Assembly (NCBI GenBank): GCA_014238205.1
Contig: JABABM010000014.1
Coordinates: 1 to 64,000, forward strand
Direction of reading: 5' to 3'
Source of the DNA: Phycisphaerales bacterium
Lineage (GTDB): Bacteria; Planctomycetota; Phycisphaerae; Phycisphaerales; SM1A02
Length of the DNA stretch: 64,000 nucleotides
Program-made: the position numbers and the translations under genes
Shown here: in pieces, positions 20,382-59,627 of the stretch
Layout of the letters: each line of letters begins with the position of its first letter
Position numbering within the stretch: the stretch's first letter is position 1
Notes under the pieces: model-generated
The model's database searches: none
Seen by the model: only the letters and a program-made list of their open reading frames with translations
What the model was told of the DNA's origin: nothing

Positions 20382-21764
20382 TCAATTCCACAGCAGCAGC
20401 CAGAGTGCCATCCATGTTCCAGCGACAACCATCACCATCGCCGTATACCCGACTATGTCCCGCGCCCGAACGCCCGTAATCGCCAGCAGCGGGAGGGCCC
20501 AGAAAGGTTGCAGCATGTTCGTCAACTCATCACCGTATGCAACAGCCATCACCATCTTTCCAGGCAGGACCCCGGCATCCATTCCCGATTGAAGGGCGAT
20601 GGGTCCCTGTATGGCCCATTGGCCGCCACCACTGGGAACGAAGATATTCACGACTCCAGCCGCAAGGAAGGCGAAGAAGGGCATGGTTGTCTGGTTCCCG
20701 ACCGATACGAAGCCTTCCGCGATCATCGTGACCAGCCCGGTTGCAGCCATGATTGCCATGATGCCTGCGTAGATGGGAAACTGGACGATGATTCCAGCAC
20801 AGCCCCGCGCTGCATCGCCGGCTGCATGCATGTAGGCCACAGGCGAGGCATGCAGCAGGAGGCCCAACGCAAACATGATCATGATCACCTGGTCGAGCCC
20901 AATCGATCCGAACCCCGATACCCAGATGTACCGTCCGACTCCCAGCAGGAGCGTGATTCCAAGAAGCCAGGCGACGATCCAACTGTTGTTGAGCAGGCGT
21001 GGGAGCCCTTCTTCGGCTGCTGCTGCACAGGGTTCTTCGACGAGAGGCTTGAATTCCCCTACGGGCTGCATGTCCTGGGTGCGTGAGGGCGCGAGCAGGG
21101 CGAGGAATGCTGGAATGATGACCAGCAGCCCGAGACAGATGACGAGATTCATCGGTGAAAGGATCGTTGCTTCGAGGGGAATCGTTCCAACCTCGGTTAC
21201 ATACGAGGATGAAAGGACCTTCTCAGCACCTGCCGTAGTCGTCATCGACAATGGAGCAGATCCTGAGAAACCTCCGTGCCAGGTGAGCAGGCCCATGTAG
21301 CCGGCAGCCGCGATGAGTGGATAGTGTGCCTTGATGTTTCTTTCGGCGAGACGTCGCCCCACGTCCCGGGCCAGCAGCGCGCCGACAATGAGCCCGAATC
21401 CCCAGTTGATCATCCCTGTTGCTGCGGCGATGAAACCGACCATGGCTGCGGCTGAACCGGTTCCGCGTGGGAGACCGGCGACGAGTCCAATGCAGGATCG
21501 CACCGGCCTGGTTGAAGCGAGGACATGACCTGTCAGGAGGATCAGGCTCATCTGCATGGCGAATGCCAGCAGTTTCCAGATCCCCGTCTTGCTGTCCTGC
21601 CATGCATCCAGGATCGTGAGCCATCGGTCAGAACCAGGTGCAAACCTGCCCCAGATCAATGCGGCCAGGATCGTGATCAGGGTCAGCAGAATTGCAATGA
21701 CCAGTGGATCCGGGATGAGCCTTCGGAACACGTGGCTGATGCTGAGTCCAAGTCGACTGATCAT
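20382..21764 (-). CDS. AtoE-type short-chain fatty acid transporter
   Basis: This 460-aa polytopic membrane protein has about 11-12 hydrophobic segments. Typical AtoE/TIGR00366 blocks are MINWGFGLIVGALLAR, WHGGFSGSAPLSM, FVPSGGGQWAIQGPI and YGDELTNMLQPFWALPLL. The family takes up short-chain acids such as acetoacetate or butyrate. It is upstream of the crotonase gene with a 3-nt gap. Its 5' flank holds three strong hairpins (21791-21970), the nearest 27 nt before the ATG. The ribosome-binding site is weak. Confidence 0.88.
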   Translation of the reverse strand: MISRLGLSISHVFRRLIPDPLVIAILLTLITILAALIWGRFAPGSDRWLTILDAWQDSKTGIWKLLAFAMQMSLILLTGHVLASTRPVRSCIGLVAGLPRGTGSAAAMVGFIAAATGMINWGFGLIVGALLARDVGRRLAERNIKAHYPLIAAAGYMGLLTWHGGFSGSAPLSMTTTAGAEKVLSSSYVTEVGTIPLEATILSPMNLVICLGLLVIIPAFLALLAPSRTQDMQPVGEFKPLVEEPCAAAAEEGLPRLLNNSWIVAWLLGITLLLGVGRYIWVSGFGSIGLDQVIMIMFALGLLLHASPVAYMHAAGDAARGCAGIIVQFPIYAGIMAIMAATGLVTMIAEGFVSVGNQTTMPFFAFLAAGVVNIFVPSGGGQWAIQGPIALQSGMDAGVLPGKMVMAVAYGDELTNMLQPFWALPLLAITGVRARDIVGYTAMVMVVAGTWMALWLLLWN

Positions 21765-21790
21765 GGCCCGCAGGATACCGCCGAAAAGTA

Positions 21791-21818
21791 CACAGGGCGG
21801 CCCGGAAGCCGCCCTGTG
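21791..21818 (-). other. Perfect 11-bp hairpin, third of three, next to the transporter start
   Basis: CACAGGGCGGC (21791-21801) pairs perfectly with GCCGCCCTGTG (21808-21818) around CCGGAA. On the minus strand it is followed by TACTTTTC and, 27 nt later, the ATG of the AtoE-like gene. It could be a terminator with read-through, an attenuator or an mRNA-stabilising leader element. Confidence 0.6.
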
Positions 21819-21856
21819 ACCTCGTTGCCGGTCAACCCCTCAGCGACCAGCAACAG

Positions 21857-21892
21857 GCGTACCGTGAGGTGACCTTCAGGTCACCGGTACGC
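21857..21892 (-). other. Two-part hairpin, second of three
   Basis: GGTGACC/GGTCACC (7 bp, loop TTCA) is extended by GCGTACC/GGTACGC (7 bp) with a one-sided 4-nt GTGA bulge. All 14 pairs are perfect. A bulged two-helix structure is less typical of a plain terminator and suggests a structured RNA or a protein-binding site. Confidence 0.55.
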
Positions 21893-21937
21893 ACCACACC
21901 TGGGGATCTCACGTGGCAGAGGCCGAAGCGCCTGCCA

Positions 21938-21970
21938 GGGATCATTCCTGATACGAACAGGAATGATCCC
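21938..21970 (-). terminator. Strong hairpin downstream of the 243-aa gene, first of three
   Basis: GGGATCATTCCTG (21938-21950) and CAGGAATGATCCC (21958-21970) form a perfect 13-bp stem with loop ATACGAA. It begins 26 nt after the stop of the minus-strand gene ending at 21997 and is the likely terminator of that gene, although the downstream T-tract is poor. Confidence 0.65.
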
Positions 21971-21996
21971 GGTTCTTGGGTGAGGGGTGATTCAGA

Positions 21997-22728
21997 TCAG
22001 AAATCTCCATGCCAGGTATTCCCTACGGCGTCATAGATCACCGATGTGTCAGCTGACTTGATCGTTCCATTCGGGCATGTACTGATGCCCACATCAACCC
22101 AGGTTGGATATGTTTCAGTTTCGATCGCTCGAAGGGCAATCGACCCCGAAGCATCCAGCAGTCCATGCACGAGCCCGGGTTCAGGAGGAGCAATGTCAGT
22201 TGCACTCTGCCCTCGTTGCGTTGCGACATGCGCCCGCAACACCTCTCCGGCAGCTTGCAGAACAACTTCTTCATCCCTCGCTCGAAGAACCAGGGTGTCG
22301 TTTGCGTCAACCTCCAGTGAGGCATTTGCCCTGATCTCGGCATTGAGCAGAGAATCACCGCATTCCCAGGCCCGCTGAATTGCCTGCGCATCCTCGACTT
22401 CGACGGGGCCATCGATCTGTACAACCCATGCGATCCGTCCAAGTATCGAGTTGTTCACGACGTGACCACTCTCCTGAATCCGTGGGGGACCGATTGGCGA
22501 TTCGCCTTCACCAGTACTGAACCCGACAAGAGTATGGGCCTCGTCGGAGATGCTGGACAGTACCAGCAGCAATCGATCGATTGACAGGCCGCATGTCTGC
22601 AGTTCCCACCCCTCCGGGAGTTGCCGCAAGGAACAGCGAACGGGAGAAAGGAGACCTGCAAGACTTCGATTCCGGGGCCCAAGAGCTGGTTGCCAGAAGG
22701 ATCCATGTTGTTCATCGTGGTAGGTCAT
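21997..22728 (-). CDS. Unrecognised 243-aa protein
   Basis: I do not recognise this protein. It is soluble-looking, with no signal peptide or transmembrane helix. It has a mixed alpha/beta pattern (LLLVLSSISDEAHTLVGF, NNSILGRIAWVVQIDGPVEV), many acidic residues, several cysteines (RCSLRQ, WELQTCGLS, WECGDS, STCPNGT) and a C-terminus rich in Thr/Trp/Gly ending NTWHGDF. The gene is supported by an excellent GGAGGTG 7 nt before the ATG, by a 4-nt ATGA overlap with a small upstream ORF, and by a 13-bp hairpin just after its stop. Confidence 0.7.
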   Translation of the reverse strand: MTYHDEQHGSFWQPALGPRNRSLAGLLSPVRCSLRQLPEGWELQTCGLSIDRLLLVLSSISDEAHTLVGFSTGEGESPIGPPRIQESGHVVNNSILGRIAWVVQIDGPVEVEDAQAIQRAWECGDSLLNAEIRANASLEVDANDTLVLRARDEEVVLQAAGEVLRAHVATQRGQSATDIAPPEPGLVHGLLDASGSIALRAIETETYPTWVDVGISTCPNGTIKSADTSVIYDAVGNTWHGDF

Positions 22729-22841
22729 GTTGCTTCACCTCCAGGTCCCTGCAGGGCAAGAACCTGCTGGACCGGGGCCCAGCATCGAGAAAGCTCGTTG
22801 AATCGGTCGTGGTCGGTGAAGTTCGTGATCTGGAAGTACAT
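22725..22841 (-). CDS. Small ORF (38 aa) overlapping the 243-aa gene
   Basis: This 38-aa protein begins MYFQITNFTDHDRFNEL and ends LQGPGGEAT. GGAG lies 8 nt before its ATG, and its TGA overlaps the ATG of the next gene (ATGA), a typical translational-coupling arrangement. The frame stays open for some codons upstream, so a non-ATG start is possible. It may be a genuine partner protein or a leader ORF whose translation controls the 243-aa gene. No homologue is known to me. Confidence 0.5.
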   Translation of the reverse strand: MYFQITNFTDHDRFNELSRCWAPVQQVLALQGPGGEAT

Positions 22842-22883
22842 GTTGTTGCTCCATGTTGTGGGGAAGAACCCCGTTGATAGAAC

Positions 22884-22911
22884 AACGCCCCATCCAGCTG
22901 GACGGGGCGTT
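22884..22911 (-). terminator. Intrinsic terminator-like hairpin
   Basis: AACGCCCC and GGGGCGTT form a perfect 8-bp outer stem; the 12-nt centre ATCCAGCTGGAC is itself nearly palindromic, so the stem can extend to the middle. On the minus strand GTTGTTCT follows. It is 27 nt past the stop of a possible small gene (22938) and 43 nt before the 38-aa ORF. Confidence 0.6.
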
Positions 22912-22937
22912 GGTGAAGTCGCTTTTGAGCGTCATGC

Positions 22938-23132
22938 TCAGTTTCTGCGATTCGGCCCCGTCCTGCGATTGGTGAGATGGCAGTAGATCGACCATGGAAG
23001 CTTGACCATCGTAAAGACGCCATGGGCCAGGGTCGGGTGGGAATCAATGAATACACGCAGACTGGACCGCTCGGCAGCGGCCTTTGCAATGGCCCGTGGT
23101 CGGGCGACAGGTTGTGTTCGGCGTGTAGTCAT
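22938..23132 (-). CDS. Possible small basic protein
   Basis: This 64-aa frame (MTTRRTQPVARPRAIAKAA, ending NRRTGPNRRN) is rich in Arg and has a hydrophobic middle (HGVFTMVKLPWSIYCHL). The frame can extend to 23165 or 23180. No Shine-Dalgarno is evident. The main support is the terminator hairpin 27 nt beyond its stop. The function is unknown and it may not be a gene. Confidence 0.3.
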   Translation of the reverse strand: MTTRRTQPVARPRAIAKAAAERSSLRVFIDSHPTLAHGVFTMVKLPWSIYCHLTNRRTGPNRRN

Positions 23133-23372
23133 GCTTTCAGGTGAATGATGCGTTTGTTTCGACATCGGGTCAACGCACAATCCAAGGATTCTTCTACTTC
23201 ATGTACGCATGGGAGTCGTGAAGGTTCTGCTGAATGCAACAACTCGTTCATGAGAGTCACTCGATGAGCTTTCCGGCAGTGTGAAGGCGGGTTATCGGCT
23301 GCAGACAGACGCACGAGGATTCCCGCAGGCGACCCGCTATAGTGGCTCTCCACTCAAGCAAGGGGGCTTCTC
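23133..23372. other. Noncoding region upstream of ubiB
   Basis: With the preceding stretch from 22842 this is the longest region without a confident gene. It holds the terminator-like hairpin (22884-22911), the doubtful basic ORF and, at its right end, the ubiB -10 candidate. Nothing else stands out: no tRNA, no repeat and no recognisable riboswitch. Confidence 0.5.
23338..23366 (+). promoter_or_regulatory. Candidate ubiB -10 box and ribosome-binding site
   Basis: TATAGT (23338-23343) is a near-consensus -10, though the -35 is poor. AAGGGGG (23360-23366) lies 6 nt before an ATC codon at 23373 that is in frame with the kinase, and 54 nt before the first ATG. This spacing favours a start at 23373. 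Confidence 0.45.
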
Positions 23373-25043
23373 ATCAGCGTCATTTCCACCATCAAGAATG
23401 CAAACCGATACCGACAGATCATGGCGGTGGTGGTGAAGTACGGTTTTCGGGAGTTTCTCACGGAATCGAAACTTCACCTGCTCAGTGGCAAGGGAGAGAA
23501 GGTCCTCAAGGAGGGAACTCCCGGCGAAGAGATGAAAAATTTATCGCGGGCAGCTCGACTTCGAAGGGCACTTGAAGAACTCGGGCCTACGTTCATCAAG
23601 CTCGGACAGATCCTGAGTACCCGCCCCGACATCCTTCCGCCCGACTGGATCGAGGAATTCCAGAAGCTCCAGAGTCAGGTTCCTCCATGTTCCTGGGACG
23701 AAATACATGCTGAACTGGTTTCGGAACTCGGTGACCTTGATGCTCTTTTCAGTTCCATCGAGGAAGAACCCCTCGCAGCGGCATCCATCGGGCAGGCGCA
23801 CAGGGCGATCAGGACTGATGGACAGCCCATGGTTCTGAAGATTCTTCGTCCGGGCATTGAGAAGGTCATCAAGTCGGACATGGAGATTCTCCATGAAGTT
23901 GCCGAATGGGTTCACAGGCACAAGGTTGACCTGCCCTTTGATCCACGAGGTGTCGTCAAGGAGTTTTCCGATTCGATTGAGAATGAACTGGATCTCATGC
24001 ATGAGGGTCGGAATACGGACATCTTCCGGCGAAACCTGGAAGAAGGTGAGCAGGCCTGGTTCCCCCTGGTGTACTGGGAGTACACGACTCGCAGGGTTCT
24101 TGGACTTGAAGAGATCAAGGGTGTTCACCTGGCACACTGGCGGGATGCGGGGCTGACAAAGGTTCAGTGCCAACAACTGGTTCGTGCCGGGGCGTACACG
24201 GTTCTTCGCCAGGTTCTCGAAATCGGGTTCTTCCACGCGGATCCTCATCCTGGAAATCTCTTTCTCCTTGATGACGGCCGACTGTGTTTCATCGACTGTG
24301 GGATGGCTGGTCGAGTCGACGAGGCGACTACATCTGAACTGGCGCTGCTCATTCACGGCGTAGCCACCAGTGACATTGAAAAGGTCTATGCGGCTTTCAT
24401 TTCGCTGGGAGAGGTAGACGAGGCGACTGCGAACGTGCGGGATATCCGGCGTGATCTTCAGGACTTCCTGGACCAGTACACCGGTGTTTCATTCAGCCAG
24501 ATCGACATGTCTTCGGTCCTGTCGGCGTTCATGGAGGGACTCCGGAAGCACGGTATCAAGTGTCCAAGTGACATCGTGATGATGATCAAGGCACTTACGA
24601 CCATCGAAGGGGTTGGCGAGGAACTCGATCCAGATTTTGATCTCATCGCCTTCGCCCGACCCCATGTCGAACAGATGATCAAGCGGCAATACAGCATGGC
24701 GGCGATCCGCAAGCGGATACAGCGCAACGCTGGAGAATGGGCCAAGCTCCTGGAGCACCTGCCCATGAACCTGGGCCGCGTCATGGATCGGTTCGGTCAG
24801 AACCAGATGTCGATGCACCTGGACCTCGAGGGAATCGAGGATTTGAACAAGACTGTTCATCACTCCAGTCGGCAGATTTCCTACTCGATGCTCGTGGCGG
24901 CCATGATCATGGCATCCGCAGTTCTCGTGTTGGCCGCAGGCAGGGAAGGGTATGCCCTTCGTTGGATCGGTGGGTTTGGCTTCTTCCTGTCATTCACCAT
25001 GGCCATCCTGATCCTGCTGGAGAATTTCATCAGGAAGCGCTGA
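23373..25043 (+). CDS. ubiB: ABC1/UbiB/AarF atypical kinase
   Basis: This protein-kinase-like membrane ATPase is of the UbiB/ADCK family, which supports isoprenoid-quinone synthesis. The family KxGQ motif (FIKLGQILSTRPD), the alanine-rich loop AAASIGQAHRA, the lysine in LKILRPG, ENELDLMHEG and the metal/catalytic motif HADPHPGNLF are present. Two C-terminal transmembrane helices follow (SMLVAAMIMASAVLVL, GFFLSFTMAILILL). The first ATG is at 23421 (540 aa) but lacks a Shine-Dalgarno. The 16 codons before it (ISVISTIKNANRYRQI) look like the usual UbiB N-terminus, and AAGGGGG stands 6 nt before ATC 23373. A rare non-AUG start is therefore proposed; otherwise the start is 23421. Confidence 0.88.
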   Translation: MSVISTIKNANRYRQIMAVVVKYGFREFLTESKLHLLSGKGEKVLKEGTPGEEMKNLSRAARLRRALEELGPTFIKLGQILSTRPDILPPDWIEEFQKLQSQVPPCSWDEIHAELVSELGDLDALFSSIEEEPLAAASIGQAHRAIRTDGQPMVLKILRPGIEKVIKSDMEILHEVAEWVHRHKVDLPFDPRGVVKEFSDSIENELDLMHEGRNTDIFRRNLEEGEQAWFPLVYWEYTTRRVLGLEEIKGVHLAHWRDAGLTKVQCQQLVRAGAYTVLRQVLEIGFFHADPHPGNLFLLDDGRLCFIDCGMAGRVDEATTSELALLIHGVATSDIEKVYAAFISLGEVDEATANVRDIRRDLQDFLDQYTGVSFSQIDMSSVLSAFMEGLRKHGIKCPSDIVMMIKALTTIEGVGEELDPDFDLIAFARPHVEQMIKRQYSMAAIRKRIQRNAGEWAKLLEHLPMNLGRVMDRFGQNQMSMHLDLEGIEDLNKTVHHSSRQISYSMLVAAMIMASAVLVLAAGREGYALRWIGGFGFFLSFTMAILILLENFIRKR

Positions 25044-59518: not shown

Positions 59519-59627
59519 AAAGAAAAGCGGCGAAGGCATGGGCCTTCGCCGCTTCAAGGCGAGAGTTGATCATCCTGATCGAATCAGAACTCGATGCGGA
59601 GTCCAAACTGCAGCGAGTGGTTGTAGA
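59519..59627. repeat. 109-bp near-identical 3' cassette, copy 1
   Basis: This segment (terminator hairpin plus the last ~15 codons of the first beta-barrel gene) is nearly identical to 60651-60759, offset by 1132 bp. Visible differences are the hairpin loop (ATGG against CAGA) and one base next to the stop codon region. The bodies of the two genes are far more diverged. Confidence 0.9.
59525..59554. terminator. Intrinsic terminator between acs and the first barrel gene
   Basis: AAGCGGCGAAGGC (59525-59537) pairs perfectly with GCCTTCGCCGCTT (59542-59554), 13 bp, loop ATGG. On the minus strand TTCTTTG follows the stem and continues its T-run, giving a classic terminator for the barrel gene. 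It is 9 nt from the acs stop and may serve both strands. Confidence 0.85.

Follow-up and report, generated by a model that had tools for sequence, protein, structure and literature searches.

In marine planctomycetes P243, a protein of 243 residues, looks to be switched on or off by sm64, a small gene that precedes it and whose end can pair with a stop signal in the RNA. On balance the arrangement is best read as a ribosome-controlled transcription attenuator that feeds a bicistronic P38-P243 mRNA. The open reading frames (ORFs), the conserved competing pairing, the spacing and the coupling architecture were computed from the window (the whole 64,000-nucleotide stretch of Phycisphaerales DNA analysed here) and from related genomes. 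The elements are listed in the order in which the minus strand is read.

23145-23173, minus strand: promoter-like site, TTGACC-17-CATCAT, 12 nt upstream of the sm64 ATG.
22938-23132, minus strand: sm64, a 64-codon ORF and candidate leader peptide, ...RRTGPNRRN-stop.
22955-22963, minus strand: segment 1, GGACGGGGC, in the R-T-G-P codons near the sm64 end; complements the hairpin 5' arm (putative antiterminator strand).
22883-22912, minus strand: terminator-like hairpin, proposed attenuator segments 2 and 3.
22725-22841, minus strand: P38, a 38-codon ORF with the Shine-Dalgarno (SD) site GGAG, its stop overlapping the P243 start in ATGA.
21997-22728, minus strand: P243, a 243-aa gene whose conserved part is the C-terminal domain (about residues 97-243).
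21938-21970, minus strand: perfect hairpin between P243 and the atoE leader, read in the sequence as a 13-bp stem with a 7-nt loop.
21791-21939, minus strand: structured atoE leader, three helices and a terminator (21791-21818).
20382-21764, minus strand: atoE, short-chain fatty acid transporter, the next gene downstream (Pfam PF02667, E 1.3e-117).

The original prediction had described a 38-aa and a 243-aa ORF overlapping by ATGA, and both are present on the minus strand at 22725-22841 and 21997-22728. Both of its SD sites were located, GGAGGTG(A) at 6-7 nt before the P243 start and GGAG at 7 nt, not 8, before P38. The two hairpins said to bracket the unit are real as well, but the upstream one, a 13-bp stem with a 4-nt loop as read in the sequence, is better seen as part of a leader than as a boundary: it stands between P38 and the ORF at 22938-23132, which that prediction did not include. 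Its suggestion of a leader peptide was right in spirit; the better candidate is sm64, beyond the hairpin and outside positions 21997-22841.

The competing antiterminator is a predicted, lineage-specific pairing. The codons of the R-T-G-P motif repeat the 3' arm of the hairpin, which enables them to pair with the 5' arm; segment 1 and this 5' arm form 9 contiguous pairs in the window, where the duplex gave z scores of -4.0 and -5.1 in two dinucleotide-shuffle runs. Among the 70 P243 loci with a usable start, 62 carry an upstream GC-rich hairpin, with long U-tracts in many relatives. The U-tract of the window hairpin is weak, and a consensus terminator scan did not list 22883-22912. The P38-P243 unit was also considered as an Rfam element and rejected, the three covariance-model matches at E≤5 in window positions 21700-23600 all being far below gathering.

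Pairing was scored by position only, taking the stretch 15-75 nt before the hairpin against the 5' arm and comparing it with dinucleotide shuffles of that stretch. The control set consisted of 52 terminators, each following a frame of 120 codons or more; genome G000 supplied 27 of these and seven further genomes of the family supplied 25. The 50 leaders had a mean z of -2.62, with z≤-2 in 35 (window included), and the controls had a mean of 0.09, with z≤-2 in 0/52. When the leaders were passed through the U-tract filter of the controls, 34 of 47 had z≤-2, and with one leader per genus the count was 15/20 (p 1.8e-9 vs controls). Genus medians reached z≤-2 in 14 of 20 genera, the exceptions being g7, g15, g52, g53, g17 and g44. 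Mononucleotide shuffles gave z≤-2 in 30/50 leaders vs 0/52 controls, and dinucleotide shuffles of a longer stretch, with every scorable hairpin included, gave 26/55. Duplex energies of -17 or below were found for 24 of the 50 leaders and 5 of the 52 controls. When arms were swapped among 20 genus representatives, none of 20,000 permutations matched the native sum.

Segment 1 and the arm also carry matched changes, such as GGACAGGGTTGA/TCAACCCTGTCC (locus L020) and GCAGGGCGTG/CACGCCCTGT (L005). Within genera, GGCGGAGC/GCTCCGCC (L033) corresponds to GCGGGGC/GCCCCGC (L036), and AGGGCG/CGCCCT (L028) to GGGGCG/CGCCCC (L030). The longest contiguous helix has at least 7 pairs in 24/50 leaders and fewer in 26/50, mostly from g18, g52 and g53. 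In the window, the antiterminator state folds at -32.1 with the 3' arm blocked, compared with a full minimum free energy (MFE) of -39.8 for the terminator state. Among 11 loci folded, the terminator state was the minimum in 9, and the antiterminator was part of the MFE in L005 and L010.

The sm64 stop codon lies 28 nt upstream of the hairpin, counting from the first base of the stop to the first base of the hairpin, and an in-frame ATG at 23165 provides an alternative start. Open frames of at least 30 codons ending 25-38 nt before the hairpin (observed 27-35) were found at 50 of the 62 loci with a hairpin; the remaining 12 of these 62 had no open frame ending in that range, and 8 of the 70 loci gave no scorable hairpin. 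These frames are predicted to be translated leader ORFs lying shortly before a terminator, with a coding signal in four genera. For sm64, dN/dS was 0.51, 0.49 and 0.43 in the three g1 pairs. In g1, g18, g22 and g53 the sm frame displayed an excess of third-position changes in most pairs and dN/dS mostly of 0.2-0.6, the other frames being mostly at about 1 or above. Little constraint was seen in g7 (0.65-1.09), and the C-termini of g52 were mixed (0.23-1.88). A small stem, TGAGC...GCTCA, at 22926-22940 (minus strand) contains the sm64 stop codon, lies in the proposed antiterminator loop and is kept in all three g1 genomes.

The sm peptides and promoters were studied at 44 loci, that is, the 50 minus L007, L008, L016, L019, L085 and L090, whose start could not be fixed. 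A TTGAC-like -35 with a -10 was found 4-12 nt before the sm ATG at 32 of these loci, the window included, where 4.0 were expected from shuffles; no such site was found at 12/44. The site of the window taken on its own is at chance level (1 found, 0.8 expected). Since the promoter-like sites lie 4-12 nt upstream of the ATG, the mRNA probably begins near the start codon. Judging from the sequence, sm64 is an apparently leaderless ORF. Cysteine makes up 6.8% (36/530) of residues in the sm ORFs of 15 genus representatives, whereas long ORFs have 1.4%. In a set of 2337 random ORFs the share is 3.5%, a difference with P 0.00045. This enrichment is a lead only towards the signal that the switch may read.

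The promoter, termination and the polarity of the switch we infer to be as follows. Transcription would start just before sm64, a nearly leaderless 64-codon ORF. Segment 1, in the R-T-G-P codons, would pair with segment 2 to form an antiterminator that excludes the terminator formed by segments 2 and 3. A ribosome trailing RNA polymerase to the end of sm64 would cover segment 1, allowing the terminator to form and transcription to stop; if the ribosome were absent or delayed early in sm64, segments 1 and 2 would pair first and the polymerase would read on. On the read-through mRNA, ribosomes would load at the P38 SD and pass via the ATGA overlap to P243, whose own SD lies inside P38. In the accessible text of PMC4824070, an E. 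coli terminator terminates at about 90% with a stop codon 28 bp upstream and at less than 10% with the stop 5 bp away. By the same spacing effect, a ribosome at the sm64 stop would, at 27-35 nt, leave the terminator free and cover segment 1. Hence translation of sm64 to its end should lead to termination, and a lacking or late ribosome to read-through. P243 starts less than 90 nt after the hairpin at 37 of the 62 loci, where hardly any space, if any, is left for a further promoter; at 30 of those 37 it starts within 50 nt and so probably depends on read-through there. Counting against the attenuator, 15/50 leaders fall short of z≤-2 and 27/52 controls come from one genome.

It is possible, though we doubt it, that sm64 stands as a small-protein gene of its own, closed by an ordinary terminator, and that P243 is expressed by leakage, with the pairing tuning a fixed leakage level. 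Stop-to-hairpin spacing at the control terminators is 15-60 (median about 30), and the 27-35 of the leaders falls within this ordinary range; the hairpin could therefore be no more than the terminator of the sm gene. The moderate purifying selection on the sm ORF in several genera also fits such a gene, as does genome G082 (L149, genus g39). A profile search found no P243 match there; a relative of the sm ORF is kept (E 3.2e-5), followed by a terminator hairpin and, after that, AtoE (397 residues aligned at 49% identity), and the pairing is retained as well (z -2.7, mononucleotide shuffles). The element is thus not tied to P243 alone: the leader would either control the operon rather than P243 specifically or belong to a gene of its own. 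Against this reading, the competing segment was seen at none of the 52 control terminators and changes together with the arm between genera, and the close P243 starts point to read-through. That the pairing is itself an artefact of GC-rich terminators and related genomes we consider very improbable. The hairpins were chosen by score and the best contiguous helix is shorter than 7 pairs in over half of the leaders, yet no pairing appears at control terminators drawn from 8 of the same genomes, and the swap test keeps composition while using one locus per genus.

A role for sm64 as a nascent-chain arrest peptide, in which a stalled ribosome rather than plain translation works the switch, appears quite unlikely. 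RTGP, which may count as an R-A-P-P-like motif, lies near the sm C-terminus in g1 and others, the ending being variable elsewhere, and arrest peptides with RAPP-like ends are described as widespread in the accessible text of PMC10987492 and PMC12992588. Across 52 loci, 12 of 21 genera have one or more members with x-[TA]-G in frame close to the stop, the ends including RTGP (g1, g4, g20), RRTGL (g43), KAGP (g50), RAGH/KAGH (g39) and KAGA (g18), among others. On the other hand, many genera have a residue other than Pro following Gly, the RNA pairing constrains the same codons, and RTGP is absent from the text of PMC12992588. A role as an export sensor, suggested by the R-T-G-P end, was considered and rejected, as the motif varies. 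A more ambitious scheme, which we hold to be unlikely as a whole, would combine these elements. Here a leaderless R-[TA]-G leader peptide would both arrest or pace its own ribosome and supply the antiterminator strand with the same codons. It would sense a specific signal, cysteine supply or other, and govern both fatty acid uptake and a protein specific to the lineage, and a natural bicistronic element would follow it, making a new planctomycete class of attenuator.

Downstream of the attenuator that we favor, the probable role of P38 is to deliver ribosomes to P243 rather than to act as a partner protein. A P38-like ORF (SD-led, 31-42 codons, with a TGA overlapping the P243 ATG) was found at 14 of the 25 loci with room for it (at least 90 nt from hairpin to P243 start), where dinucleotide shuffles predict 0.46. 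All 14, from seven genera, end in TGA at +1 with the exact ATGA overlap, the arrangement being that of a first ORF with its own SD and a second SD inside it. This recurrence in the same coupled position argues that the coupling is real. On a tree of 68 P243 domains the P38 trait requires 7 changes, 2 of these being forced by well-supported branches. The P243 start region has an openness of 0.42 with P38 (n=14) and 0.52 without (n=56), p 0.004 by a statistic that ignores kinship.

The original prediction had offered a true partner as one role for the 38-aa ORF and proposed checking whether the pair stays together in relatives. A P38-like ORF accompanies P243 at the 14 loci and was not found at 56 of the 70 P243 loci. 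Random sequence in place of the 38-aa ORF beside a retained 243-aa gene, named there as the observation that would speak against the pair, was seen in part: G001 has a 38-codon ORF of the same length, and G002 (L003, the window's genus) has no P38, its P243 (50% identical) starting at the place of the P38 SD and start. Changes between the window and G001 are spread evenly over the codon positions of P38 (10/12/11) and give no coding signal; because of this and the loss in G002, a specific partner protein is unsupported in the window's genus, and by themselves these two observations would suit random sequence. At E≤1, a search with P38 returned matches in 45 of 181 genomes, of which only G001 was convincing (E 4.8e-6); the next best (E 0.013) was located elsewhere in its genome. 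P38 was accordingly rejected as a conserved protein, and the P38-like peptides of different genera are mostly unrelated sequences in which we recognized no relatedness by eye. Genus g22 provides the exception. Its P38-like peptide is conserved, with dN/dS of 0.14, 0.34 and 0.42 in three pairs and a third-position excess. In g22 (L014, L080, L083 and L084) the C-terminal half reads HPCLRRGRGxSPSGGAA in three of the four members, with one more change in L084, and there are several synonymous changes. The g22 peptide, the ATGA overlap, and the similar length and same place in seven genera would suit a working microprotein produced together with P243, a subunit for instance. We nevertheless judge this improbable for P38, and a coupling minicistron is the simplest account, fitting better than a partner except in g22.

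P243 itself is a real protein family without a named family or clear fold. Relatives occur in 71 of 181 genomes of the window's Phycisphaerales-type family, counting that of the window. When 400 genomes sampled from the order were searched with a profile, P243 turned up in 70, all within the window's family. Ten named relatives are metagenome-assembled genomes of Phycisphaerae, Phycisphaerales or Planctomycetota. Conservation is found mainly in the last 147 residues. Compared with G001 (L002), P243 has 35/31/137 changes over the codon positions and a dN/dS of 0.09, indicating clear purifying selection. AlphaFold2 (AF2) models the protein with a mean pLDDT of 84.9 overall and 94.9 for residues 97-243. 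Start codons of P243 and the sm ORFs were picked by hand from SDs and alignment.

The view that neither protein is recognizable was upheld, and the profile and structure searches proposed at the time yielded, for P243, no family and no clear PDB relative. For P243, P38 and sm64 alike, there were 0 families in Pfam and NCBIfam (E≤1; the upstream ORF in its 75-aa form) and 0 in PHROGs and PADLOC (E≤0.1). Foldseek found no PDB match at E≤0.001 for the whole P243 model or for residues 97-243. With VIA-align, the best match of the whole model had Z 5.4 (87 residues, rmsd 3.0) and that of residues 97-243 had Z 4.9 (78 residues, rmsd 3.9). A PDB sequence profile gave two matches (E 0.32 and 1.6), nothing usable for a function. 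Similarly, 30 P243 members searched against Pfam at E≤0.5 hit 8 families with one member each (best E 0.00075; YbjN E 0.032), which we treated as chance.

The genomic place of P243 is often kept. In short flanks of 37 loci (L002-L038), an AtoE relative (PF02667) was found at 19 and a relative of the divergent ABC1/UbiB-type kinase (PF03109) at 13. Further neighbours, from their sequence, we take to be enoyl-CoA hydratase, ThiC and thymidylate kinase. Among 16 genomes without P243, a strong UbiB match was found in only 4, with no such module on their divergent sides by eye, a result of little weight. An AtoE search of 9 g50/g17 genomes gave no match and was counted as uninformative.

Between P243 and atoE lies a structured leader that is a candidate riboswitch on sequence comparison. 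Two-sided changes affect 15 of 42 consensus pairs (6 sequences), three helices have compensatory changes, and two conserved blocks, CAGGTGT.GTG and GAGGGGT, precede the terminator. No Rfam match came near gathering. Among 181 genomes, the model recovered its six source loci, from g1 and g7 only, and one weak g36 match (E 0.001); the idea of a widespread riboswitch was therefore rejected. The neighbouring hairpin 21938-21970 has no U-tract on either side, and L002 has a shorter hairpin with a similar loop. Elsewhere in the window, two nearly identical terminators (GAAGCGGCGAAGGC...GCCTTCGCCGCTTT) at 59556 and 60688 on the minus strand, 1.1 kb apart, follow two ORFs and may reflect a tandem duplication.

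To our knowledge, leader-peptide attenuation has been described mostly in Proteobacteria, Firmicutes and Actinobacteria. The present candidate comes from a comparison of 20 genera, mostly uncultured marine planctomycetes, and is clear by median in 14. Coding and pairing constraints fall on the same codons, so effects of the peptide and of the RNA are separable by synonymous changes. The P243 tree further provides natural replicates of a coupling minicistron of 31-42 codons, gained or lost several times, and P243 adds a compact protein family without a recognized fold.

Among known systems, ribosome-mediated attenuators of the trp/his/ilv type likewise have a leader ORF close to the 5' end, an antiterminator and a terminator that exclude each other, and a structural gene reached by read-through. 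In contrast, the leader ORF here is longer (25-81 codons as read here), its codons themselves would be the antiterminator strand, there is no run of one regulatory amino acid, the target gene has no named function, and the polarity is one that we infer. Mycobacteria have leaderless cysteine-codon attenuators. Like these, the sm ORFs are apparently leaderless, precede an operon and are enriched in Cys; unlike them, their Cys content is only twice that of random ORFs, they have no poly-Cys run at the end, and the gene downstream encodes a fatty acid transporter instead of being a sulfur gene. The R-T-G-P end of sm64 recalls the R-A-G-P of SecM, and in genus g1 Arg-(Ala/Thr)-Gly-Pro lies only a few codons from the stop, a feature shared with arrest peptides of the SecM/RAPP type. 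SecM-type control acts through a masked SD, where sm64 has a transcription terminator. Moreover, the sm motif varies across genera, the downstream gene differs, and arrest by sm64 is a candidate property.

Other upstream ORF peptides, with an LPPP end, occur in Phycisphaerales and two related orders in the accessible text of PMC10987492. The element described here does not appear in the accessible open-access literature, including PMC4833913, PMC12992588, PMC10987492 and PMC4824070, which is weak evidence. The accessible part of PMC4833913 describes ribosome reinitiation and short leader genes that lie closely upstream of structural genes, in Planctomycetes too; those leader genes are non-overlapping and peak at 10-11 bp, whereas P38 and P243 overlap in ATGA. 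As far as the available text of PMC6728339 and PMC5995908 describes them, synthetic bicistronic designs and ATGA coupling likewise use a short first cistron and a 4-nt stop/start overlap. The P38-like cistrons differ from these in that they are natural, have 31-42 codons, keep their position as their sequence drifts, and stand behind a putative attenuator.
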